Assembly: GCA_028287135.1 (NCBI GenBank)
Contig: JAQBQE010000033.1
Location: 1-64,000, forward strand
Length of the DNA: 64,000 bases
Source: Myxococcales bacterium
GTDB lineage: Bacteria > Myxococcota_A > Polyangia > Haliangiales > Haliangiaceae
Direction of reading: 5' to 3'
The notes beneath the pieces are model-generated. The model did no database searches, had not been told where the DNA came from, and saw only the letters and a program-made list of their open reading frames with translations. The position numbers and the translations under genes were made by a program. This document shows, piece by piece, positions 24,701-37,045 of the stretch (positions are counted from its first letter, which is position 1; the number at the start of each line of letters is the position of its first letter).

Positions 24701-24713
24701 CGACGAGTTGGCG
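24701..24713 (+). promoter_or_regulatory. Activator site A3 (distal) of methyltransferase 1
   Basis: CGACGAGTTGGCG, one mismatch from CGACA-N3-TG(T/G)CG. Its centre is 43 bp upstream of site A2. Confidence 0.45.
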
Positions 24714-24743
24714 CGACCAGCGACATGAGCTCACGATGCGTCC

Positions 24744-24756
24744 CGCCCATCTGGCG
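24744..24756 (+). promoter_or_regulatory. Activator site A2 of methyltransferase 1
   Basis: CGCCCATCTGGCG, a degenerate copy of the 13-bp element. Its centre is exactly 42 bp upstream of site A1, the same spacing as in the two sister promoters. Confidence 0.6.
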
Positions 24757-24785
24757 AGCTCGCCGCTTCCATCGCCAGTACGGTA

Positions 24786-24798
24786 CGACATCGTGTCG
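24786..24798 (+). promoter_or_regulatory. Activator site A1 of methyltransferase 1
   Basis: CGACATCGTGTCG is a perfect 5+5 palindrome. Its centre is 82 bp upstream of the C of the -12 element, about -94 from the predicted start of transcription, which is normal for a sigma-54 enhancer. Confidence 0.7.
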
Positions 24799-24858
24799 CC
24801 CCACCATCGCGGGGGAGGGCGCTTCGTCCTTCACGCCGCACTCCACCCGTTCCGAGCC

Positions 24859-24875
24859 TTGGCTCGCTGTATGCA
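24859..24875 (+). promoter_or_regulatory. Sigma-54-type promoter of methyltransferase 1
   Basis: TTGGCTCGCTGTATGCA agrees with the -24/-12 consensus TTGGCACG-N4-TTGCW at 11 of 13 defined positions and has the obligatory GG-N10-GC spacing. Transcription would start near 24886. Confidence 0.75.
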
Positions 24876-24898
24876 TTTTATGCATTTGAGGTCGAATG

Positions 24899-24972
24899 AT
24901 GTGCGAAGCAATGCCCCGACGGAGGGCGCGCGAATGACGGACGTCGTTCGCGCGGCAGTGCACGCATGCTGA
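24899..24972 (+). other. Two overlapping leader mini-ORFs before methyltransferase 1
   Basis: Two 12-codon frames lie between the predicted transcription start and the gene: 24899-24937 and 24934-24972. The first overlaps the second in ATGA, and the second's TGA overlaps the methyltransferase start in ATGCTGA. This could couple translation. An 8-bp inverted repeat (CGCGCGAA at 24927-24934, TTCGCGCG at 24947-24954) lies within. Coding is not proven. Confidence 0.3.
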
Positions 24973-25619
24973 GTCCGGCACGTGTCCTTGCGGCCTTGCG
25001 ATGGCGGACCGCCGTGCCAGATCGCGTGTTCGATCGCCTCTATCCGAAACATGTGCGGCGACTGTCCTCGGTTCACTGGACTCCAGTATCGGTTGCGCTT
25101 CGCGCCGCAGAATGGCTAGCCCCCACGGCGGGCGCACGCGTACTCGACGTCGGCTCCGGGCCCGGAAAGCTCTGCTGCATCGGTGCCGCCGCTCGGGGTG
25201 GGACGTGGCACGGTGTCGAGCGCGATCCCGCACTCGTGGAGGCCGCGAACGCGGCAGCGAAGCTCCTCGACCTCGAGAGATCGACGACGTTCAGTGCCGG
25301 CGAGATGGAGGTGGTCGACTGGCACTCGTTCGACAGCCTCTACTTTTACAATCCGTTCGCGGCAATCCTGTTCGGTGAAGCGCCGTTCGCAAAGGCGGTC
25401 CGCTGGTCCATGCTGACCGATCAGATCGCCCGCACCGAAGCGCATCTCGCGGATCTCTCGGTCGGCACGCGCGTGGTGACGTATGAGGGCTTCGGTGGGG
25501 ACATGCCCGATGGCTACCTGCTCACCCACGCGGAGATGATCGACGACAGGCGGCTCGCTCTGTGGGTCAAGCAACGATCGACACGTGGTGTGCGACCGAA
25601 ACCCACCGATCCATTTTGA
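24966..25619 (+). CDS. SAM-dependent methyltransferase, paralogue 1 of 3
   Basis: A 217-residue class I methyltransferase. After V-H-W-T-P-V-S-V (residues 36-43) comes the SAM-binding motif V-L-D-V-G-S-G-P-G-K at 59-68, an acidic ribose contact in V-E-R-D (84-87) and Y-F-Y-N-P-F (126-131) in the position of the catalytic (D/N)PP(Y/F) motif. C-terminal strand motif T-R-V-V-T-Y-E-G-F-G-G. The same features recur in the genes at 25757 and 27783. The target is unknown; an N-P-F motif would fit N-methylation of protein or nucleic acid, but this is inference. ATG at 24966 is the only start after an in-frame stop at 24897. Under a sigma-54-type promoter with an 80-base leader. Confidence 0.88.
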   Translation: MLSPARVLAALRWRTAVPDRVFDRLYPKHVRRLSSVHWTPVSVALRAAEWLAPTAGARVLDVGSGPGKLCCIGAAARGGTWHGVERDPALVEAANAAAKLLDLERSTTFSAGEMEVVDWHSFDSLYFYNPFAAILFGEAPFAKAVRWSMLTDQIARTEAHLADLSVGTRVVTYEGFGGDMPDGYLLTHAEMIDDRRLALWVKQRSTRGVRPKPTDPF

Positions 25620-25756
25620 ACGGCAGCTCCTCGCGGCTCCAGACGACGCCGGGTGAGCTCCGCGCGCTGCTGAGATCATGCTCGCCATGCAGCGTCCGCG
25701 GGGCCGGCGCGTGGCACGAAGCCGAACCTCCAGGACCGTACCGATACGGTTGCTGT

Positions 25757-26389
25757 TCATGAGGCTTGATCCAGGTCGGGCTCGTCGTCGTTCTTGATCC
25801 ACAGCTCCAGGCGGTCGGTGCCGGCCGGATGAGTTTCGACGAGGTCGTAGCCGTGCGGGGCCGGGGCCCCGAACGTGTGATAGGTCACCACGCGCGTGCC
25901 CGCCCGAGCACGAGCGAGCCGTTCGCGCGTACCCGTCACGTAGCGGAGGAACGTGGAGGGCATCAGCTCGATCTGCGCGTCCAGGGCGAATGCCTTCCCG
26001 GACAACTGTTCGGCGAACGGGTTGTAGAAGTAGAAGGCGTCGTACTCGGACCAATCGAGCTCCAACGCATCGCCGTCCAGGAACGTCACGTTCGCAACCG
26101 ACATGCGGGCGGCGAGCCGCTTCGCCACCCGCACGAGATGCGGCCGCAGCTCGATACCGACGAACGTGCATGCTGGAACCTCGGACGCGGCGACGACACA
26201 GAACTTCCCTGGTCCCGCTCCGACGTCGAGCACGCGCATCCCGGGAATGGGCGCGAGCAGCCGCGCAGCGTGTCGCGCGACCGAAACAGGCGTGAAGTGG
26301 ACCGCCGACTGGACCTGCATCTTGCGCGGCAGGTGATCGTCGAAGACGTCGTCTTCATCGGGTGTATCGAGGGACAACTGCGAGCTCAT
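25757..26389 (-). CDS. SAM-dependent methyltransferase, paralogue 2 of 3
   Basis: A 210-residue class I methyltransferase paralogous to the genes at 24966 and 27783. H-F-T-P-V-S-V at residues 31-37, V-L-D-V-G-A-G-P-G-K at 53-62, G-I-E-L about 78-81, and F-Y-F-Y-N-P-F at 119-125. The C-terminal strand is T-R-V-V-T-Y-H-T-F-G. A longer frame opens with GTG at 26431, but the predicted sigma-54 transcript begins near 26391, so the ATG at 26389 is the likely start and the mRNA is nearly leaderless. The gene is transcribed away from the activator gene and shares with it the intergenic region that holds the activator sites. Confidence 0.88.
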   Translation of the reverse strand: MSSQLSLDTPDEDDVFDDHLPRKMQVQSAVHFTPVSVARHAARLLAPIPGMRVLDVGAGPGKFCVVAASEVPACTFVGIELRPHLVRVAKRLAARMSVANVTFLDGDALELDWSEYDAFYFYNPFAEQLSGKAFALDAQIELMPSTFLRYVTGTRERLARARAGTRVVTYHTFGAPAPHGYDLVETHPAGTDRLELWIKNDDEPDLDQAS

Positions 26390-26401
26390 CGACTCCGCCG
26401 T

Positions 26402-26418
26402 TGCACGACGCGGACCAG
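26402..26418 (-). promoter_or_regulatory. Sigma-54-type promoter of methyltransferase 2
   Basis: On the minus strand CTGGTCCGCGTCGTGCA matches 9 of 13 consensus positions with exact GG-N10-GC spacing. The predicted start (26391) is two bases before the ATG. It is the weakest of the three promoters; the upstream site at an identical distance to that of promoter 1 supports it. Confidence 0.6.
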
Positions 26419-26478
26419 CGTCGATGGCCACGGGTTCCCTGCGGTTATCGGGACCCTCCCACCGGATAGAGGGGGACG

Positions 26479-26491
26479 CGACAGCGTGTCG
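26479..26491 (-). promoter_or_regulatory. Activator site B1 of methyltransferase 2
   Basis: CGACAGCGTGTCG (plus strand) is a perfect 5+5 palindrome whose centre is 82 bp from the C of the -12 element of promoter 2, exactly as for site A1. It may also serve the divergent activator gene. Confidence 0.7.
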
Positions 26492-26520
26492 TGATCGTGG
26501 CCAAGCGATCGGTTGCCGCC

Positions 26521-26533
26521 CGACACGCTGGCG
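26521..26533 (-). promoter_or_regulatory. Activator site B2 of methyltransferase 2
   Basis: CGACACGCTGGCG (plus strand), one mismatch from a perfect palindrome, centred 42 bp beyond site B1 (four helical turns). With B1 it forms a 10-bp inverted repeat, CAGCGTGTCG ... CGACACGCTG. Confidence 0.65.
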
Positions 26534-26579
26534 TAGCGTGGACGCGCCAGAGCAGGCGGGAGGGGTAGACTGCGACCCG

Positions 26580-27542
26580 ATGCCGAAGCGTCAGCGAACT
26601 CCCATCGTGGTGCTCGAACCGGTGATGACATCACCGGTGATGCGATCGTTCGATCGCTTCCTGCGCGCCATTGCGGTGAAGGAGGTGACGGTCACGTTCA
26701 CCGGAGAAACGGGATCCGGCAAAGAGGTCATGGCCCGGCGTCTCCACGAGATGTCACCGCGTCGTGGCGGGCCGTTCGTACCGATCAATTGCGCCGCGAT
26801 TCCGGAAGCGCTCTTCGAGAGCGAGCTCTTCGGTCACGAGCGCGGTGCGTACACCAGTGCGAACGAGCGTTCGAGCGGGAAGATCGAGGTTGCAGACGGC
26901 GGCACGTTGTTTCTGGACGAGATCGCCGAGATGCCGCTGTCGCTGCAAGCGAAGATGCTCCGGTTCCTCGAGACCCGTCGCTACATGCGCGTCGGAGGGA
27001 CCAAGAAGATTCAGGCAGATGTCCGATTGGTCCTCGCAACCTTGCGTCCCCTGGAACAGGAAGTTCGAGCGGGCCGATTCCGCCCGGATCTGTTCTACCG
27101 GATCCAGGGCATCGTCTTGGAGGTCCCCCCGCTGCGTGAACGTCGTCGCGACATCCCCCAGCTCCTCGATGGCTTCATCGCGCAACTCTCCGCGACCCAC
27201 GACGTCGAGCCTCCGGTGTTCGCGCGGTCAGCGCGTTCCGCGCTCGTTGCCTACGGCTGGCCAGGTAACGTGCGTGAGCTACGAAACGCTGTCGAGCTGC
27301 TTTGTATCTTGCGCGAGGGCAAGGCCGTCCGGGTGCTGGACCTGCCTCCGAGCATCCGGCAAGGACGCGCGGACTCCACGGTCGAGGGCGACAGCATCGT
27401 CGTTCCGACCAACCGGCCGCTCGATGAGATCGTGGATCTGGTGATCGATGCCGCGATCAGTGCCGAGCACGGAAATCTTACCCGCGCGGCCCAGCGTCTC
27501 AAGGTCAGCGTAAGGACACTTCAACGTCGGGCCCGAGGGTAG
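26580..27542 (+). CDS. Sigma-54 enhancer-binding activator without sensor domain
   Basis: A 320-residue AAA+ activator of sigma-54 RNA polymerase. Walker A G-E-T-G-S-G-K-E at 42-49, Walker B L-F-L-D-E at 110-114, R-fingers R166/R168 (F-R-P-D-L-F-Y-R), sensor II W-P-G-N-V-R-E-L, and a C-terminal Fis-type helix-turn-helix at about 290-318 (N-L-T-R-A-A-Q-R-L-K-V-S-V-R-T-L-Q-R-R). The sigma-54 contact loop reads G-A-Y-T-S-A (89-94) instead of G-A-F-T-G-A. There is no receiver, GAF or FHA domain, so like PspF it must be controlled by a partner protein, by expression or by a ligand of the core. It lies among the three methyltransferase genes and is their probable activator. Confidence 0.9.
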   Translation: MPKRQRTPIVVLEPVMTSPVMRSFDRFLRAIAVKEVTVTFTGETGSGKEVMARRLHEMSPRRGGPFVPINCAAIPEALFESELFGHERGAYTSANERSSGKIEVADGGTLFLDEIAEMPLSLQAKMLRFLETRRYMRVGGTKKIQADVRLVLATLRPLEQEVRAGRFRPDLFYRIQGIVLEVPPLRERRRDIPQLLDGFIAQLSATHDVEPPVFARSARSALVAYGWPGNVRELRNAVELLCILREGKAVRVLDLPPSIRQGRADSTVEGDSIVVPTNRPLDEIVDLVIDAAISAEHGNLTRAAQRLKVSVRTLQRRARG

Positions 27543-27585
27543 GTCGCGCGACGGCCCACGTGCGCTCGGCGGCGTTGGTCATGAG

Positions 27586-27598
27586 CGACAGGTCACCG
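27586..27598 (+). promoter_or_regulatory. Activator half-site C3 of methyltransferase 3
   Basis: CGACAGGTCACCG has the conserved left half CGACA exactly 42 bp upstream of site C2; the right half is not conserved. Confidence 0.35.
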
Positions 27599-27627
27599 CC
27601 GCGGAGGTGGTCGCGGCGCGCCACTGA

Positions 27628-27640
27628 CGACAACCTGGCG
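27628..27640 (+). promoter_or_regulatory. Activator site C2 of methyltransferase 3
   Basis: CGACAACCTGGCG, matching B2 in both halves, centred exactly 42 bp upstream of site C1. Confidence 0.6.
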
Positions 27641-27669
27641 TCCCGAGGGCGCTCCACACTCCCCCGCTC

Positions 27670-27682
27670 CGACATCGTGACG
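27670..27682 (+). promoter_or_regulatory. Activator site C1 of methyltransferase 3
   Basis: CGACATCGTGACG, one mismatch from site A1. Its centre is 92 bp from the C of the -12 element, one helical turn further than in the two sister promoters. Confidence 0.65.
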
Positions 27683-27752
27683 CATTGCTTGCCCATGGCT
27701 GGCCCATCGACGTCCGTGGTCGAGCGGCGCCCGTGATCCGGCCACGTTGCAT

Positions 27753-27769
27753 CTGGCGCGGTCAATGCA
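27753..27769 (+). promoter_or_regulatory. Sigma-54-type promoter of methyltransferase 3
   Basis: CTGGCGCGGTCAATGCA matches 10 of 13 consensus positions with GG-N10-GC spacing and shares TGGCxCG-N4-ATGCAT with promoter 1. Predicted start near 27780, three bases before the ATG at 27783. Confidence 0.72.
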
Positions 27770-27782
27770 TCACGACCCATCC

Positions 27783-28436
27783 ATGCACGCTGCGATCACC
27801 GCGCGGCTTCGACACCAGACGGTGATGAAGGACGCAACCTTCGATCAGGTGTTCCCGCCGTCCCAGCGCTTACGCAGCTGCATCCACTGGACGCCAGTGG
27901 ATGTCGCGGTGCGCGCTGCCGTGTTGCTCGCGCCACTGCCTGGCCGAAAAGTGCTTGACGTCGGAGCGGGGGTCGGCAAGTTGTGTCTGGTCGGCGCCGC
28001 GACGACGAGCTCCACCTGGTTTGGCATCGAGCGCGACGCGGAGATGGTCCGGTCGGCGAGCGCCGCCGCGAGTGCGATGCATGTCGAGCAGCGGACGCGC
28101 TTCTTCCTCGGGGATGTCACAAGCGTCGACTGGTCCGCGTTCGACGCGTTCTACCTGTTCAATCCGTTCTCGGAGATGCGGTTCGAGGGGCTGCTGTCCG
28201 CTACTCCCGAGGAAGCGCAGGCGCGCCGCGTGCGACACACCGCAACCGTCGAGTTCGTTCAGCAACAGCTCTTATCGGCAGCAGCGGGCACGCGCGTCGT
28301 GACCTATCACGGCTTCGGAGGCGAGATGCCGGCCGGGTTCGATCTCGCGCATCGAGAACCAGCGCGGGGCGACGAGCTGTGCCTGTGGATTCGTCGTCGT
28401 TCACGTCGCCAGCCAGCTGGCCATGCGGTCCGATGA
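27783..28436 (+). CDS. SAM-dependent methyltransferase, paralogue 3 of 3
   Basis: A 217-residue class I methyltransferase, the third paralogue. H-W-T-P-V-D-V at residues 35-41, V-L-D-V-G-A-G-V-G-K at 57-66, G-I-E-R-D at 81-85, F-Y-L-F-N-P-F at 123-129, and T-R-V-V-T-Y-H-G-F-G-G near the C-terminus. The N-terminal 30 residues align with paralogue 1. The ATG at 27783 is chosen over in-frame codons from 27747 because those lie upstream of the predicted sigma-54 transcription start. A later ATG at 27825 is possible but would lose the conserved N-terminus. Target unknown. Confidence 0.86.
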   Translation: MHAAITARLRHQTVMKDATFDQVFPPSQRLRSCIHWTPVDVAVRAAVLLAPLPGRKVLDVGAGVGKLCLVGAATTSSTWFGIERDAEMVRSASAAASAMHVEQRTRFFLGDVTSVDWSAFDAFYLFNPFSEMRFEGLLSATPEEAQARRVRHTATVEFVQQQLLSAAAGTRVVTYHGFGGEMPAGFDLAHREPARGDELCLWIRRRSRRQPAGHAVR

Positions 28437-34452: not shown

Positions 34453-35091
34453 CTATGGGGGATCAGCGTCTTCGACGGGCGGAATCCACTCCTTGGTGTA
34501 GTGGTAGCGAATCTGATCCTCGGGGTAGCGCCACGCGCGCTGACTGCAGGCGTCGCGCACGGCGAGCCAGCTCTCCCAGTGCGTCGCGTCGCGGGCCGCC
34601 TCGAACGCCGCGCCGCAGCTCTGCGTGCAGCGGTACGGCGGGGCGATCGGGAGGTGGACGGGCGCCCCACCGTCCACGAGGATCACCGCGCGCAGCGCGA
34701 ACCACGGTCCGTAGATCGGATGGATCACGAGCTGCGACGGCACGAGGACGCCGAACCCGGTCGCCGCAGCGAGCCGCTGGAACGGACGGTACCTGCCGTC
34801 GTACGCGCGATGTGCGTACTCGACCCGAGCGCCGGGGAAGGCCGCATCGACCGCGCGCTCGGTATATCGATCGAGCGGATCGGGCTCGGCGGCGAGCGCG
34901 GGATCCTTCATCGCCGCGACGAAGTGCGGCCACAGCGCGCGGGTGTTGCCGATCAGGAGCGCGAGGCGATGGCCCCCGGCGAGGTGATCCCAGCCCGGCT
35001 CGCGCGCGGCCGCGATCGGATCGAAGGTGTGAACGAGGTCGAAGCCCGCATCAGCGAGCTGGGCGATCGCGTGGTTCACGCCTCCGACCAT
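34453..35091 (-). CDS. CblC/MMACHC-like cobalamin-processing protein
   Basis: A 212-residue protein resembling MMACHC (CblC), the flavin-dependent enzyme that removes the upper ligand of cobalamins. Matching landmarks are F-D-L-V-H-T-F near the N-terminus, L-A-L-L-I-G-N-T-R-A-L-W, D-P-L-D-R-Y-T, H-P-I-Y-G-P-W-F-A-L-R and W-R-Y-P-E-D-Q-I-R-Y-H-Y-T at the C-terminus. These correspond in order to conserved segments of MMACHC. The assignment is by remembered motif order, without an alignment. It is divergent from an alpha/beta hydrolase gene with only 15 bp between starts, so both mRNAs are probably leaderless. Confidence 0.65.
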   Translation of the reverse strand: MVGGVNHAIAQLADAGFDLVHTFDPIAAAREPGWDHLAGGHRLALLIGNTRALWPHFVAAMKDPALAAEPDPLDRYTERAVDAAFPGARVEYAHRAYDGRYRPFQRLAAATGFGVLVPSQLVIHPIYGPWFALRAVILVDGGAPVHLPIAPPYRCTQSCGAAFEAARDATHWESWLAVRDACSQRAWRYPEDQIRYHYTKEWIPPVEDADPP

Positions 35092-35106
35092 GGCACACTC
35101 GCCACC

Positions 35107-35916
35107 GTGCCGGCGCGTCTTCATCACGAGCGGATCGCCCACAGCGATCGAGTCCCCGACCGGTGGCTGCTGCTGACCCACGGCATCTACGGTGCCGGCA
35201 GTAACTGGCGCACCATCGCGCGCAAGCTGACCGATCGCCGACCCGAGTGGGGCGTGATCCTCCTCGATTTGCGCCAGCACGGACGCTCCGAAGGCGGCGC
35301 ATCGCCGCACACGCTCGCCGCATGCGCCGACGACGTGCGCGCGCTGGTCGACGAGCTCGGCGGGGTGACCGCGCTCGCGGGGCACAGCTTCGGCGGCAAG
35401 GTCATGCTCGCCACCCGCCCGCTCGTTCACGTCGAGCAGACCTGGATGCTCGATGCGAGCCCGAGCCTCCGGCCGTCCTACATGAGCGATCGCGGCAACA
35501 GCGTGCTCGACGTGCTCGAGATGATGGAGCGCTTGCCGCCGACGTGGGCGAAGCGCGATGACTTCGTCGCCGCGGTGGTCGCAGAAGGTCACGACCTCGG
35601 ACTCGCGCAGTGGCTCGCGATGAACATCGTCCCCGATCCGGCTGGCACGCTGACGATGCGGCTCGATCTCCCTGCCGTGCGCGCGATGATCACGGACTAC
35701 GCCGCGACCGATCTGTGGGACTCGCTGCTCGATCCGGCCCCGGGGCGCGTCGAGATCGTGATCGCGGAGCGTGCCTCCGTGTTCACCCCCGAGGACCGTG
35801 CGCGCCTTGCGCAGGTCCCGCCGCATGTCCACGTGCACACCATCGACGCGGGTCACTGGCTCCACATCCAGGCTCCGCAACCGGTGGTCGAGCTGTTCGC
35901 GACCGAGCTGCCCTGA
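35107..35916 (+). CDS. Alpha/beta hydrolase
   Basis: A 269-residue alpha/beta hydrolase: oxyanion region T-H-G-I-Y-G-A-G-S-N-W, nucleophile Ser in G-H-S-F-G-G, catalytic His in A-G-H-W-L-H-I. Order and length match esterase/lipase or YbfF-like thioesterases (L-L-D-L-R-Q-H-G-R-S). GTG at 35107 follows the 15-bp gap from the divergent CblC-like gene; no Shine-Dalgarno. Substrate unknown; cytoplasmic. Confidence 0.87.
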   Translation: MPARLHHERIAHSDRVPDRWLLLTHGIYGAGSNWRTIARKLTDRRPEWGVILLDLRQHGRSEGGASPHTLAACADDVRALVDELGGVTALAGHSFGGKVMLATRPLVHVEQTWMLDASPSLRPSYMSDRGNSVLDVLEMMERLPPTWAKRDDFVAAVVAEGHDLGLAQWLAMNIVPDPAGTLTMRLDLPAVRAMITDYAATDLWDSLLDPAPGRVEIVIAERASVFTPEDRARLAQVPPHVHVHTIDAGHWLHIQAPQPVVELFATELP

Positions 35917-36055
35917 ACCGGCCGTGGTCTTGCACCGTCCGGCCCGCAGTGCGCCATGGGTCGGAAACCGGGGGGCGATCGCCGTGATCGCCGTCAACGT
36001 CGTTGGCATGGTGACAACCGTCCTCGCGCAACGCGGCAGGACTCCGGGTGTCCGG

Positions 36056-37045
36056 ATGTGCGTGGCGGCGCGCGCACTCGCGGTTCTTGTCGCGCTCCTG
36101 TCCGGGGTGCAGGTCGGGTCCGCCGAGCCGTTCGGCTGGCGTGCACCGGCCGGCTGTCCGACGGAGACGGACATCCGGACACGGATCGAGCGCCGGCTCG
36201 GGACATCGGTCGACAGCGGTGCGATCCACGGGATCGAGATCACGATCTCGCGCGAGGCCGGCGGATTCGTCGCCGAGATCGATGCGCGCGCGCTCACCGT
36301 CGCGAATGACATCCGGACCCTGCGTAGCACCCGGTGCGATGCCCTCGCCGACGCGATCGCCGTGATCATCGCCCGGCTGGCGACCGAGGCCCGCCGCGAG
36401 CCCACCCGCGGACGGACGGATGGCTCGGACACGCTGATGGCGGACCTCGTCGCGGCGGACATCTCCGACCCGGAGGTCGCGGCGAGTGCGGTCCGCCGGC
36501 GCGCGATCGGCGTCCGGGCCCCGCTCGGCAGCGGCCCGCGCTGGGGAGGTGGCGGCCACGTCCTCGGGCTGAGCGGGGTGGGAGCGTTGCCGCGGCTCAA
36601 CCTCGGCGGCGAGCTCGCGGGCTATGTCCGGCGCAACGACACGTTCGTCGAGCTGGCGATCGGCCGGTGGGTGCCGCAGACCGTCGCGCTCGATCCCGGG
36701 GCTCCCGCGGGGGTCGAGGTCAGCCTCGATGTCGTCTCGCTGCGCGCCGGGTGGGGACCTCACGAGCTCCCGCTGCGCGCGTGGCTGCTCGGCGAGCTCG
36801 GGCTGATCCACGGCACCGGCGTCGCGGTGGACGACGCGCGGACGGCTTCGGCCCGGTGGACGGCGCTCGGCGGCGGGTTCGGCGTGGCCTGGCCGATGTC
36901 CCCGATCGCCCGGCTGGTCGGCACCGTCGAGCTGGCGATCCCGCTCGAGCGGACCCGGTTCATGCTGCGCGACGGCGCCGATCTCTACCAGCCGGCCGTC
37001 GCGGCCGCTCGGTGCTCGCTGGGAATCGAAGTCGGCTGGAAATGA
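36056..37045 (+). CDS. Secreted protein encoded with an ECF sigma factor
   Basis: A predicted exported protein of about 329 residues: signal peptide cleaved after G-S-A, then an N-terminal domain with an A-G-C-P and a T-R-C pair (probable disulfide) and a C-terminal beta-rich region (G-V-G-A-L-P-R-L-N-L-G-G-E-L-A-G-Y, F-V-E-L-A-I-G-R-W-V-P) that looks like an outer-membrane barrel. ATG at 36056 gives the best signal peptide; an upstream ATG at 36008 is possible. Its stop overlaps the start of the sigma factor gene in ATGA. First gene of a five-gene operon. Confidence 0.78.
   Translation: MCVAARALAVLVALLSGVQVGSAEPFGWRAPAGCPTETDIRTRIERRLGTSVDSGAIHGIEITISREAGGFVAEIDARALTVANDIRTLRSTRCDALADAIAVIIARLATEARREPTRGRTDGSDTLMADLVAADISDPEVAASAVRRRAIGVRAPLGSGPRWGGGGHVLGLSGVGALPRLNLGGELAGYVRRNDTFVELAIGRWVPQTVALDPGAPAGVEVSLDVVSLRAGWGPHELPLRAWLLGELGLIHGTGVAVDDARTASARWTALGGGFGVAWPMSPIARLVGTVELAIPLERTRFMLRDGADLYQPAVAAARCSLGIEVGWK

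Follow-up and report, generated by a model that had tools for sequence, protein, structure and literature searches.

Among described sigma-54 systems, the one closest in layout to the locus reported here is that of PspF, an activator without a sensor domain that combines an AAA+ domain with a Fis-type helix-turn-helix (HTH) and is encoded beside, and divergently from, a target gene, with upstream activating sequences (UAS) between the two and two UAS at some targets. According to an excerpt of PMC3709507, Escherichia coli PspF represses its own sigma-70 promoter via the pspA enhancer, and there are two UAS at pspA and one at pspG. Sensor-less activators constitute type Ic of the enhancer-binding proteins (EBPs) in the excerpted part of PMC3162934. 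Here we describe a locus of this layout in a 64,000-nucleotide stretch of DNA from a Myxococcales bacterium (positions 1 to 64,000 of contig JAQBQE010000033.1, assembly GCA_028287135.1; hereafter the window). Three paralogous class I S-adenosylmethionine (SAM)-dependent methyltransferases (MTases), which we call M1, M2, and M3, lie at 24.7-28.4 kb around one sensor-less sigma-54 activator, in the order M1 (+), M2 (-), activator (+), M3 (+). We consider it very probable, on grounds that are strong for a study confined to sequence, that the MTases are controlled by this activator; the complete reading, in which one sigma-54 regulon joins the activator to three MTases with protein targets, is moderately probable. 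The four genes are:

24966-25619, + strand: M1, class I SAM-dependent methyltransferase (domain search, identity, tree)
25757-26389, - strand: M2, class I SAM-dependent methyltransferase, with its ATG (26389) at about +3 of the predicted mRNA (domain search, identity, tree)
26580-27542, + strand: sensor-less sigma-54 activator, AAA+ with a GAYTSA loop plus Fis-type HTH, ATG at 26580 (domain search, orthologs)
27783-28436, + strand: M3, class I SAM-dependent methyltransferase, ATG at 27783 (or 27765), near +4 of the predicted transcript (domain search, model, tree)

An earlier note on this stretch, drawn from its letters and open reading frames, had described three MTases with shared motifs around a sensor-less activator, and the genes, the quoted motifs, and the Pfam domains all agree with that description. 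The 320-residue activator contains Sigma54_activat from residue 17 (PF00158, 211 bits against a cut-off of 20.2), an AAA lid, and HTH_8 (24.5 bits against a cut-off of 22). Pfam searches found no sensor domain in it, and neither a sensor nor a receiver domain in the five ortholog frames scanned (loci L131, L195, L194, L060, and L048; here and below, L, G, and C numbers are our handles for loci, genomes, and contigs). Having no signal-recognition domain, it falls within EBP type Ic, and its AAA+ domain, its Fis-type HTH, and its -24/-12 targets with upstream UAS are those of a sigma-54 EBP, as far as sequence can tell. As with PspF, no -24/-12 site of its own was found within 300 bp; none scoring at least 9 occurs in that span at 12 of 13 activator loci, and L194 has a weak one. 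Despite these similarities, the activator scores 242.1 bits against TIGR02974 (cut-off 443.55), its targets are MTases rather than the psp genes of the E. coli regulon, and no PspA gene is adjacent. The assembly holds two PspA-family matches, the better one at C16:155567, about 130 kb away. The activator works like PspF but is not PspF. The earlier assertion that no described system has this layout was too strong in view of PspF itself (PMC3709507) and of EBP type Ic (PMC3162934), as the excerpts of both describe them, although its enzyme content is indeed novel. A literature search of titles and abstract openings found no publication naming this system. What is new is the enzyme content, and the locus is a real, conserved, and new combination of known parts.

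Each MTase is preceded by a predicted -24/-12 promoter and by the palindrome CGACA-N3-TGTCG, first noticed on visual inspection of the window and of L060, the centre of which lies 82 (M1), 82 (M2), or 92 bp (M3) before the C of the -12 element. Second copies with one mismatch each lie 42 bp further upstream at M2 and M3. The same 42-bp spacing is seen at a candidate site upstream of M1 and at an MTase of G003, where the 82+124 geometry of the M2 UAS recurs. The sites, of which the palindromic ones carry no strand, are:

24744-24756: candidate degenerate second UAS of M1, CGCCCATCTGGCG (7/10), found by eye, centre 42 bp upstream of the main UAS, weak alone
24786-24798: UAS of M1, CGACATCGTGTCG (10/10), centred 82 bp ahead of the -12 C
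24859-24875, + strand: predicted -24/-12 promoter of M1, TTGGCTCGCTGTATGCA (consensus score 11/13)
26402-26418, - strand: predicted -24/-12 promoter of M2, CTGGTCCGCGTCGTGCA (consensus score 10/13)
26479-26491: UAS1 of M2, CGACAGCGTGTCG on + (10/10), lying 82 bp ahead of the -12 C and 95 bp ahead of the activator start
26521-26533: UAS2 of M2 (9/10), 42 bp further upstream and 53 bp before the activator start
27628-27640: UAS2 of M3 (9/10), 134 bp before the -12 C
27670-27682: UAS1 of M3, CGACATCGTGACG (9/10), 92 bp before the -12 C
27753-27769, + strand: predicted -24/-12 promoter of M3, CTGGCGCGGTCAATGCA (consensus score 11/13)

The three GG-N10-GC sites stand where the earlier note had placed them and rescore at 11, 10, and 11 of 13 consensus positions, against 11, 9, and 10 before. 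As evidence, such scores are near chance and prove nothing by themselves, for 25 sites scoring at least 10 occur on the two strands of the window against about 17.8 expected under a Markov model; the evidence is the UAS. With at most one mismatch, the UAS word has 12 occurrences in the window against 6.35 expected, and 1 of 100 shuffles reached that count. When a composite site is defined as a promoter of at least 10 with a UAS of at least 9/10 at 70-140 bp, the window contains three against about 0.2 expected, and all three are MTase promoters. Across the assembly (4.84 Mb, 71 contigs, 59.5% complete, one rpoN match, sigma-54 present), the pattern CGACANNNTGNCG-N54-84-YTGG-N9-TGCW matches three times, at exactly the three MTase promoters, and its reversed control never; when the free base is moved to the other arm, the pattern matches M1, M2, and one other site, its control again giving none. 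The UAS word by itself has 34 sites in the 4.84 Mb against 15 for the reversed control word.

The palindrome is also prominent elsewhere. In 11 activator loci (window and L060 excluded), it ranks first among the 1024 five-base arms at its arm spacing, with 11 sites in 60 kb, spread over 7 of the 11 loci, against 0.42 expected at the window genome's own rate. A UAS with a promoter precedes 8 of 26 MTase genes examined in activator-bearing genomes and 0 of 83 elsewhere (33 high-GC and 50 low-GC; Fisher P 0.0007 for the high-GC set only). In this count, "elsewhere" means loci in which no activator ortholog was found, named records being searched at the locus rather than genome-wide, and L112-L117, L119, L125, L138, L146, L147, L166 (mostly repeats), and L195 (G279) are left out. 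The 12 primary UAS-to-promoter distances fall at 82-84 and 91-93 bp, with one at 105, and show phasing at 10.5 bp (R 0.77; simulated P 0.0004). This test excluded secondary UAS (124, 134, 124), pairs with score-8 promoters (L045 at 110, L047 at 115 and 139, L109 at 83 and 129), and longer distances found later (L131 at 137-138, L195 at 157, L037 at 159, L194 at 170). An ordinary cluster of paralogs plus an activator, with chance matches to promoter and UAS, would account for the unremarkable promoter scores and for the poor specificity of a loose composite pattern (see below), but it is extremely improbable given the uniqueness of the stricter pattern in the assembly, the top rank of the palindrome in 11 other loci, the helical phasing, and the 8/26 versus 0/83 distribution.

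The earlier note had named conservation of the cluster in relatives as a test of its proposal, and the cluster is conserved. Orthologs of the activator, 60-87% identical, are present in 9 of 55 relatives, which with the window genome gives 10 of 56 genomes (382-691 bits; the next best protein reaches 272 bits). A phylum sample yielded 4 of 235 genomes at E 1e-90, namely G000 (the window genome) and G019 again plus G150 and G279, and a further ortholog (392 bits) lies in the Polyangiaceae record L131; L112, L115, L116, L117, and L138 repeat G003, G001, G020, G010, and G018 and are not recounted. Several ortholog starts were set by alignment and do not coincide with a start codon, and the gene content of very GC-rich loci was read by domain searches on open frames. 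In the fetched stretches, an MTase lies beside the activator at 10 of 13 ortholog loci: three each in the window, G001, G003, and L131, two in G018 and G010, and one each in G015, G019, G020, and G279. A UAS of at least 9/10 lies within 150 bp upstream of the activator start at 6 of the 13, some of these starts being estimates. As a separate observation, the activator of L121 (Deltaproteobacteria SJ496), which is more distant (241 bits) and in which no receiver domain was found, has three MTases around it; no recognisable shared or repeated UAS was seen in this locus.

The regulon of the relatives appears to extend beyond MTases. UAS/promoter pairs there also precede a Hyf-type (complex-I-like) operon and an ACT-domain malic enzyme, and for this reason, and because an assembly that is 59.5% complete may miss targets, the description of the window cluster as self-contained is unsupported. 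A HyfB-type gene occurs in 7 of the 13 activator loci (G003, G015, G018, G019, G020, G022, and G150), and ACT-malic enzymes adjoin MTases in G001, G003, and G014. A UAS/promoter pair spaced by 92 bp precedes the malic gene of G001 (promoter 9/13), and the Hyf operon of G019 follows a 13/13 promoter with an exact UAS 159 bp from it. The G014 pair, its -24/-12 box identical to that of the Hyf promoter in G003, is directed off the edge of its contig, and a Hyf operon with an MTase begins another contig of that genome; a phosphoenolpyruvate (PEP) synthase/pyruvate phosphate dikinase (PPDK)-type enzyme and a cation ATPase lie near the G014 activator. Longer spacings are also seen in L131, where CGTCAAATTGTCG (9/10) and CGTCAAGTTGTCA (8/10) stand 138 and 137 bp from near-identical promoters, G279, with an exact UAS 157 bp from the promoter at its MTase, and G150, with a 9/10 UAS at 170 bp.

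A sigma-54 activator adjoining a Hyf-type complex with -24/-12 and UAS sites recalls FhlA and the formate hydrogenlyase/Hyf regulon. Unlike FhlA, however, the activator has no sensor domain by Pfam and scores 212.2 bits against NF011958 (cut-off 830), and unlike that regulon, this one includes MTases. Moreover, 8 of 9 Hyf large subunits (L047, L046, L056, L060, L110, L120, L194, and L037) lack the N-terminal NiFe cysteine pair, the motif being replaced by, for example, ETIAGDT..AH, and the C-terminal pair is absent in 7 of the 8 subunits covered there; the G015 subunit (L111) keeps both pairs. Operons with such altered subunits are preceded by a UAS/-24/-12 pair in several relatives. By the cysteines that define group 4 [NiFe] hydrogenases, the Hyf-type operon of the relatives thus appears to be mostly NiFe-less and to fall outside that group.

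Several observations speak against a specific and conserved regulon and must be weighed with the above. The strict composite pattern was designed after the sites were known, so the tests are partly post hoc, and the test loci are kin, which makes the P values optimistic. A looser pattern (exact UAS, YGG-N9-TGC) finds M1, M2, and one other match against two in the reversed control, and matches 44 of 56 genomes; specificity holds only for the stricter pattern, the looser one being unspecific. The GC-rich word GCGCG, when set at spacings 4 and 5, likewise has 12 sites spread over 7 loci, its counts in the background set being 54 and 36 against 11 for the UAS word. No exact UAS was found at 4 of the 11 test loci (L048, L110, L131, and L194), two of which carry a 9/10 variant, and 18 of the 26 MTase genes in activator genomes lack a composite site, some of them lying inside operons. 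At three of the 13 activator loci (G014, at a contig edge, G022, and G150), the fetched stretch contains no MTase. In the window assembly, HyfB was not found at E 1e-30, a negative that proves nothing by itself in an assembly 59.5% complete, nor was a close ACT-malic homolog at E 1e-60. Finally, the loop of the window activator reads GAYTSA, as against GAFTGA or GAYTGA in 12 other orthologs, and the G5S change is graded only as putatively functional in the excerpted part of PMC3162934.

This loop, unique among the 13 orthologs compared, could mean that the activator, having lost its sigma-54 function, now represses or activates sigma-70 transcription in the manner of TyrR-type proteins, leaving the -24/-12 sites as relics; the excerpt of PMC3162934 names TyrR, DhaR, and HupR as such non-functional homologs. 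The same excerpt, however, reports a validated activator with F3Y and grades G5S as putatively functional, the Thr at loop position 4 is retained, rpoN is present, and all three -24/-12 boxes persist at a regular distance from the UAS. We regard loss of sigma-54 function as very unlikely.

Under the preferred reading of an active sigma-54 regulon, the activator would, by homology, bind CGACA-N3-TGTCG upstream of M1, M2, and M3, using two sites 42 bp (four helical turns) apart at M2 and M3. A hexamer would assemble at the UAS and, through DNA looping, contact the sigma-54 RNA polymerase waiting 82-92 bp away at the -24/-12 element. Its ATP hydrolysis would then open the promoter, leading to joint expression of the three MTases; their induction as a block is likely. 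Lacking a sensor domain, the activator is probably always competent, and it may be controlled by its own amount, by an inhibitor protein, or by both. The two UAS just upstream of the activator start could repress the activator gene as in pspF, and by this analogy we infer negative autoregulation through a shared enhancer. Since the activator family also appears to drive the Hyf-type operon and the ACT-malic enzyme in relatives, the regulon would amount to an energy-conversion and C3-C4 metabolism programme, plausibly one for low oxygen.

Predicted translation starts close to the predicted 5' end are a recurring feature: the M2 ATG at +3, that of M3 at +4, a G001 MTase at +5, G018 HyfB at +6, and a G003 MTase (GTG) and the G003 HyfB at +7. 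Other starts lie further in (M1 at +81, the G015 MTase at +35, and the G001 malic gene at +61). If these predicted starts are correct, near-leaderless mRNAs are possible at several targets. By eye, a small open frame at 24880-24969 of the window runs from the M1 promoter and overlaps the M1 start (ATGCTGA), an arrangement compatible with translational coupling.

The MTases themselves belong to a family represented in records titled Myxococcales, Bdellovibrio, Leptospiraceae, Acidobacteria, and many Bacteroidetes, of which we kept 78 loci from 337 confirmed matches. M1 and M2 pass the curated cut-off for Methyltransf_31 and M3 that for Methyltransf_25; identity to M1 is 39% for M2 and 43% for M3. 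All three have motif I and the NPF motif. D59, G61, G63, G65, and K66 are invariant in 72 MTase sequences, and NPF after strand 4 is invariant in 28 sequences, with N invariant and F nearly so among the 72. In a tree built from 51 MTases, the three window copies are spread over three separate groups. M1 forms a pair with an MTase of G001 (99/82) and M2 with one of G003 (100/97), and M3 lies inside a seven-member group (100/95) with MTases of G001 and G003. A fourth group (five rows, 100/99), not represented in the window, contains only MTases of activator genomes. The fourth MTase of the window genome (C18:168488-169093; L044:7525-8085) lies outside the cluster, belongs to the M3 group, and was found to have no UAS/promoter pair by the test used for the MTase gene counts. 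MTases from outside activator loci are found in each of the three groups, this copy and two from G006 among them, which tells against an exclusive tie between the M1, M2, and M3 groups and the activator. From their separate positions in the tree, the three window copies are old, separately kept paralogs, which argues for different targets. In L131 (Polyangiaceae bacterium Bin8.16), by comparison, the three MTases around one activator form a single lineage-specific group (100/99), and the triple number has arisen there independently, by lineage-specific triplication.

The nature of those targets is the weak part of the argument. The M3 structure model (predicted local distance difference test, pLDDT, 92) gives class I fold matches, and the Foldseek list is headed by E-value by 5bxy ("RNA methyltransferase"), aKMT, DOT1L, SafC, and Trm11, with PrmA a little lower. 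The query TM-score (TMq) is mostly 0.50-0.60 among the best 50 matches. With 5bxy, a TP..V..R stretch before the SAM motif could be aligned; nevertheless, the chains of 5bxy, aKMT, and DOT1L reach a TMq of only about 0.50-0.57 at 13-21% identity, and the DOT1 family PF08123 stays below its cut-off for M2 (13.5 of 23 bits) and is unlisted for M1 and M3. A sequence search of the PDB for substrate clues matched only general methyltransferases. The likeness to aKMT and DOT1, as with every Foldseek match, is at the fold level only.

Genomic context supplies a second line of evidence. A SulP-family gene lies on the same strand as an MTase, 26-51 bp from it, in five separate records, which we take from their titles to span four phyla:

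L057:5662-8088, same strand as the MTase: SulP gene beside MTase (same record as L114, titled Kofleriaceae)
L131:2618-5256, same strand as the MTase: SulP gene beside MTase (Polyangiaceae)
L124:4746-6154, same strand as the MTase: SulP gene beside MTase (Bacteriovorax)
L159:6390-9139, same strand as the MTase: SulP gene beside MTase (Spirochaetes)
L184:10022-12201, same strand as the MTase: SulP gene beside MTase (Saprospiraceae)

SulP genes occur anywhere in the fetched stretch at 14 of 110 MTase loci. L051, L057, L159, and L184 match SulP models, DauA being the best for the first three and its cut-off passed only by L051. Among 52 low-GC loci (mostly Bacteroidetes), the recurring neighbours are a GcvH/GDCCVxC mixture (18), the cluster representative of which matches GDCCVxC just below the cut-off, a Crp/Fnr-type regulator (17), and PckA (11); other recurring clusters in L142-L181 (mostly Bacteroidetes) are presumably GcvT and DUF983. 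Because a Hyf-type complex, ACT-malic enzyme, PEP synthase/PPDK-type enzyme, cation ATPase, and SulP gene adjoin the MTases or their activator, context favours energy metabolism and transport.

The same regulon could instead drive MTases whose substrate is a small molecule, such as a metabolite that becomes O- or N-methylated, an alternative that we rate as unlikely while granting it appreciable weight. The small-molecule O-methyltransferase SafC stands fifth in the Foldseek list, which weakens the case for protein targets; TMq is highest for small-molecule-type enzymes, and SafC, Rv0187, and 3tfw have 0.58-0.60, at or above the protein methyltransferases, again as fold-level likeness. Phosphoethanolamine N-methyltransferases are among the PDB sequence matches, and malic enzyme, PckA, GcvH, and SulP are metabolic neighbours. 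On the other hand, no biosynthetic gene cluster was seen around the genes examined, the protein methyltransferases aKMT, DOT1L, and PrmA are also in the top Foldseek list, and the NPF motif seems to resemble the NPPY of amino-group methyltransferases. We place protein targets first, as moderately probable, and small molecules well below them. Most likely, then, the MTases are N-methyltransferases with different targets, and membrane proteins of energy conversion or transport would be our guess. The mitochondrial, aKMT-like ATPSc-KMT and ANT-KMT, which according to an excerpt of PMC9006661 methylate ATP synthase c and the ADP/ATP carrier, offer a precedent by analogy rather than evidence.

The most detailed version of this proposal, which we hold to be quite unlikely in full, is that of a dedicated methylation regulon, in which the constitutively competent activator expresses as a block several anciently diverged protein N-methyltransferases, partly from nearly leaderless mRNAs. 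Each enzyme would have its own target among the subunits and transporters of a co-regulated, NiFe-less complex-I-like machine and of the C4-dicarboxylate/bicarbonate supply to it. If true, bacteria would have in this regulon an equivalent of the methyltransferases by which mitochondria tune ATP synthase, the ADP/ATP carrier, and complex I. An unnamed MTase family also gains a regulatory context, with the Hyf-type complex, malic enzyme, SulP, PckA, and the Fnr/Crp-type regulator as possible partners, and the explicit UAS makes regulon scans of Kofleriaceae and Polyangiaceae genomes, and target prediction from them, direct.

Elsewhere in the window, a large open frame on the - strand (34456-36600) has a weak MMACHC-like match, below cut-off. 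The flanks of the MTase cluster are ordinary, with ArsR- and AHSA1-type genes and an Lhr-type helicase.

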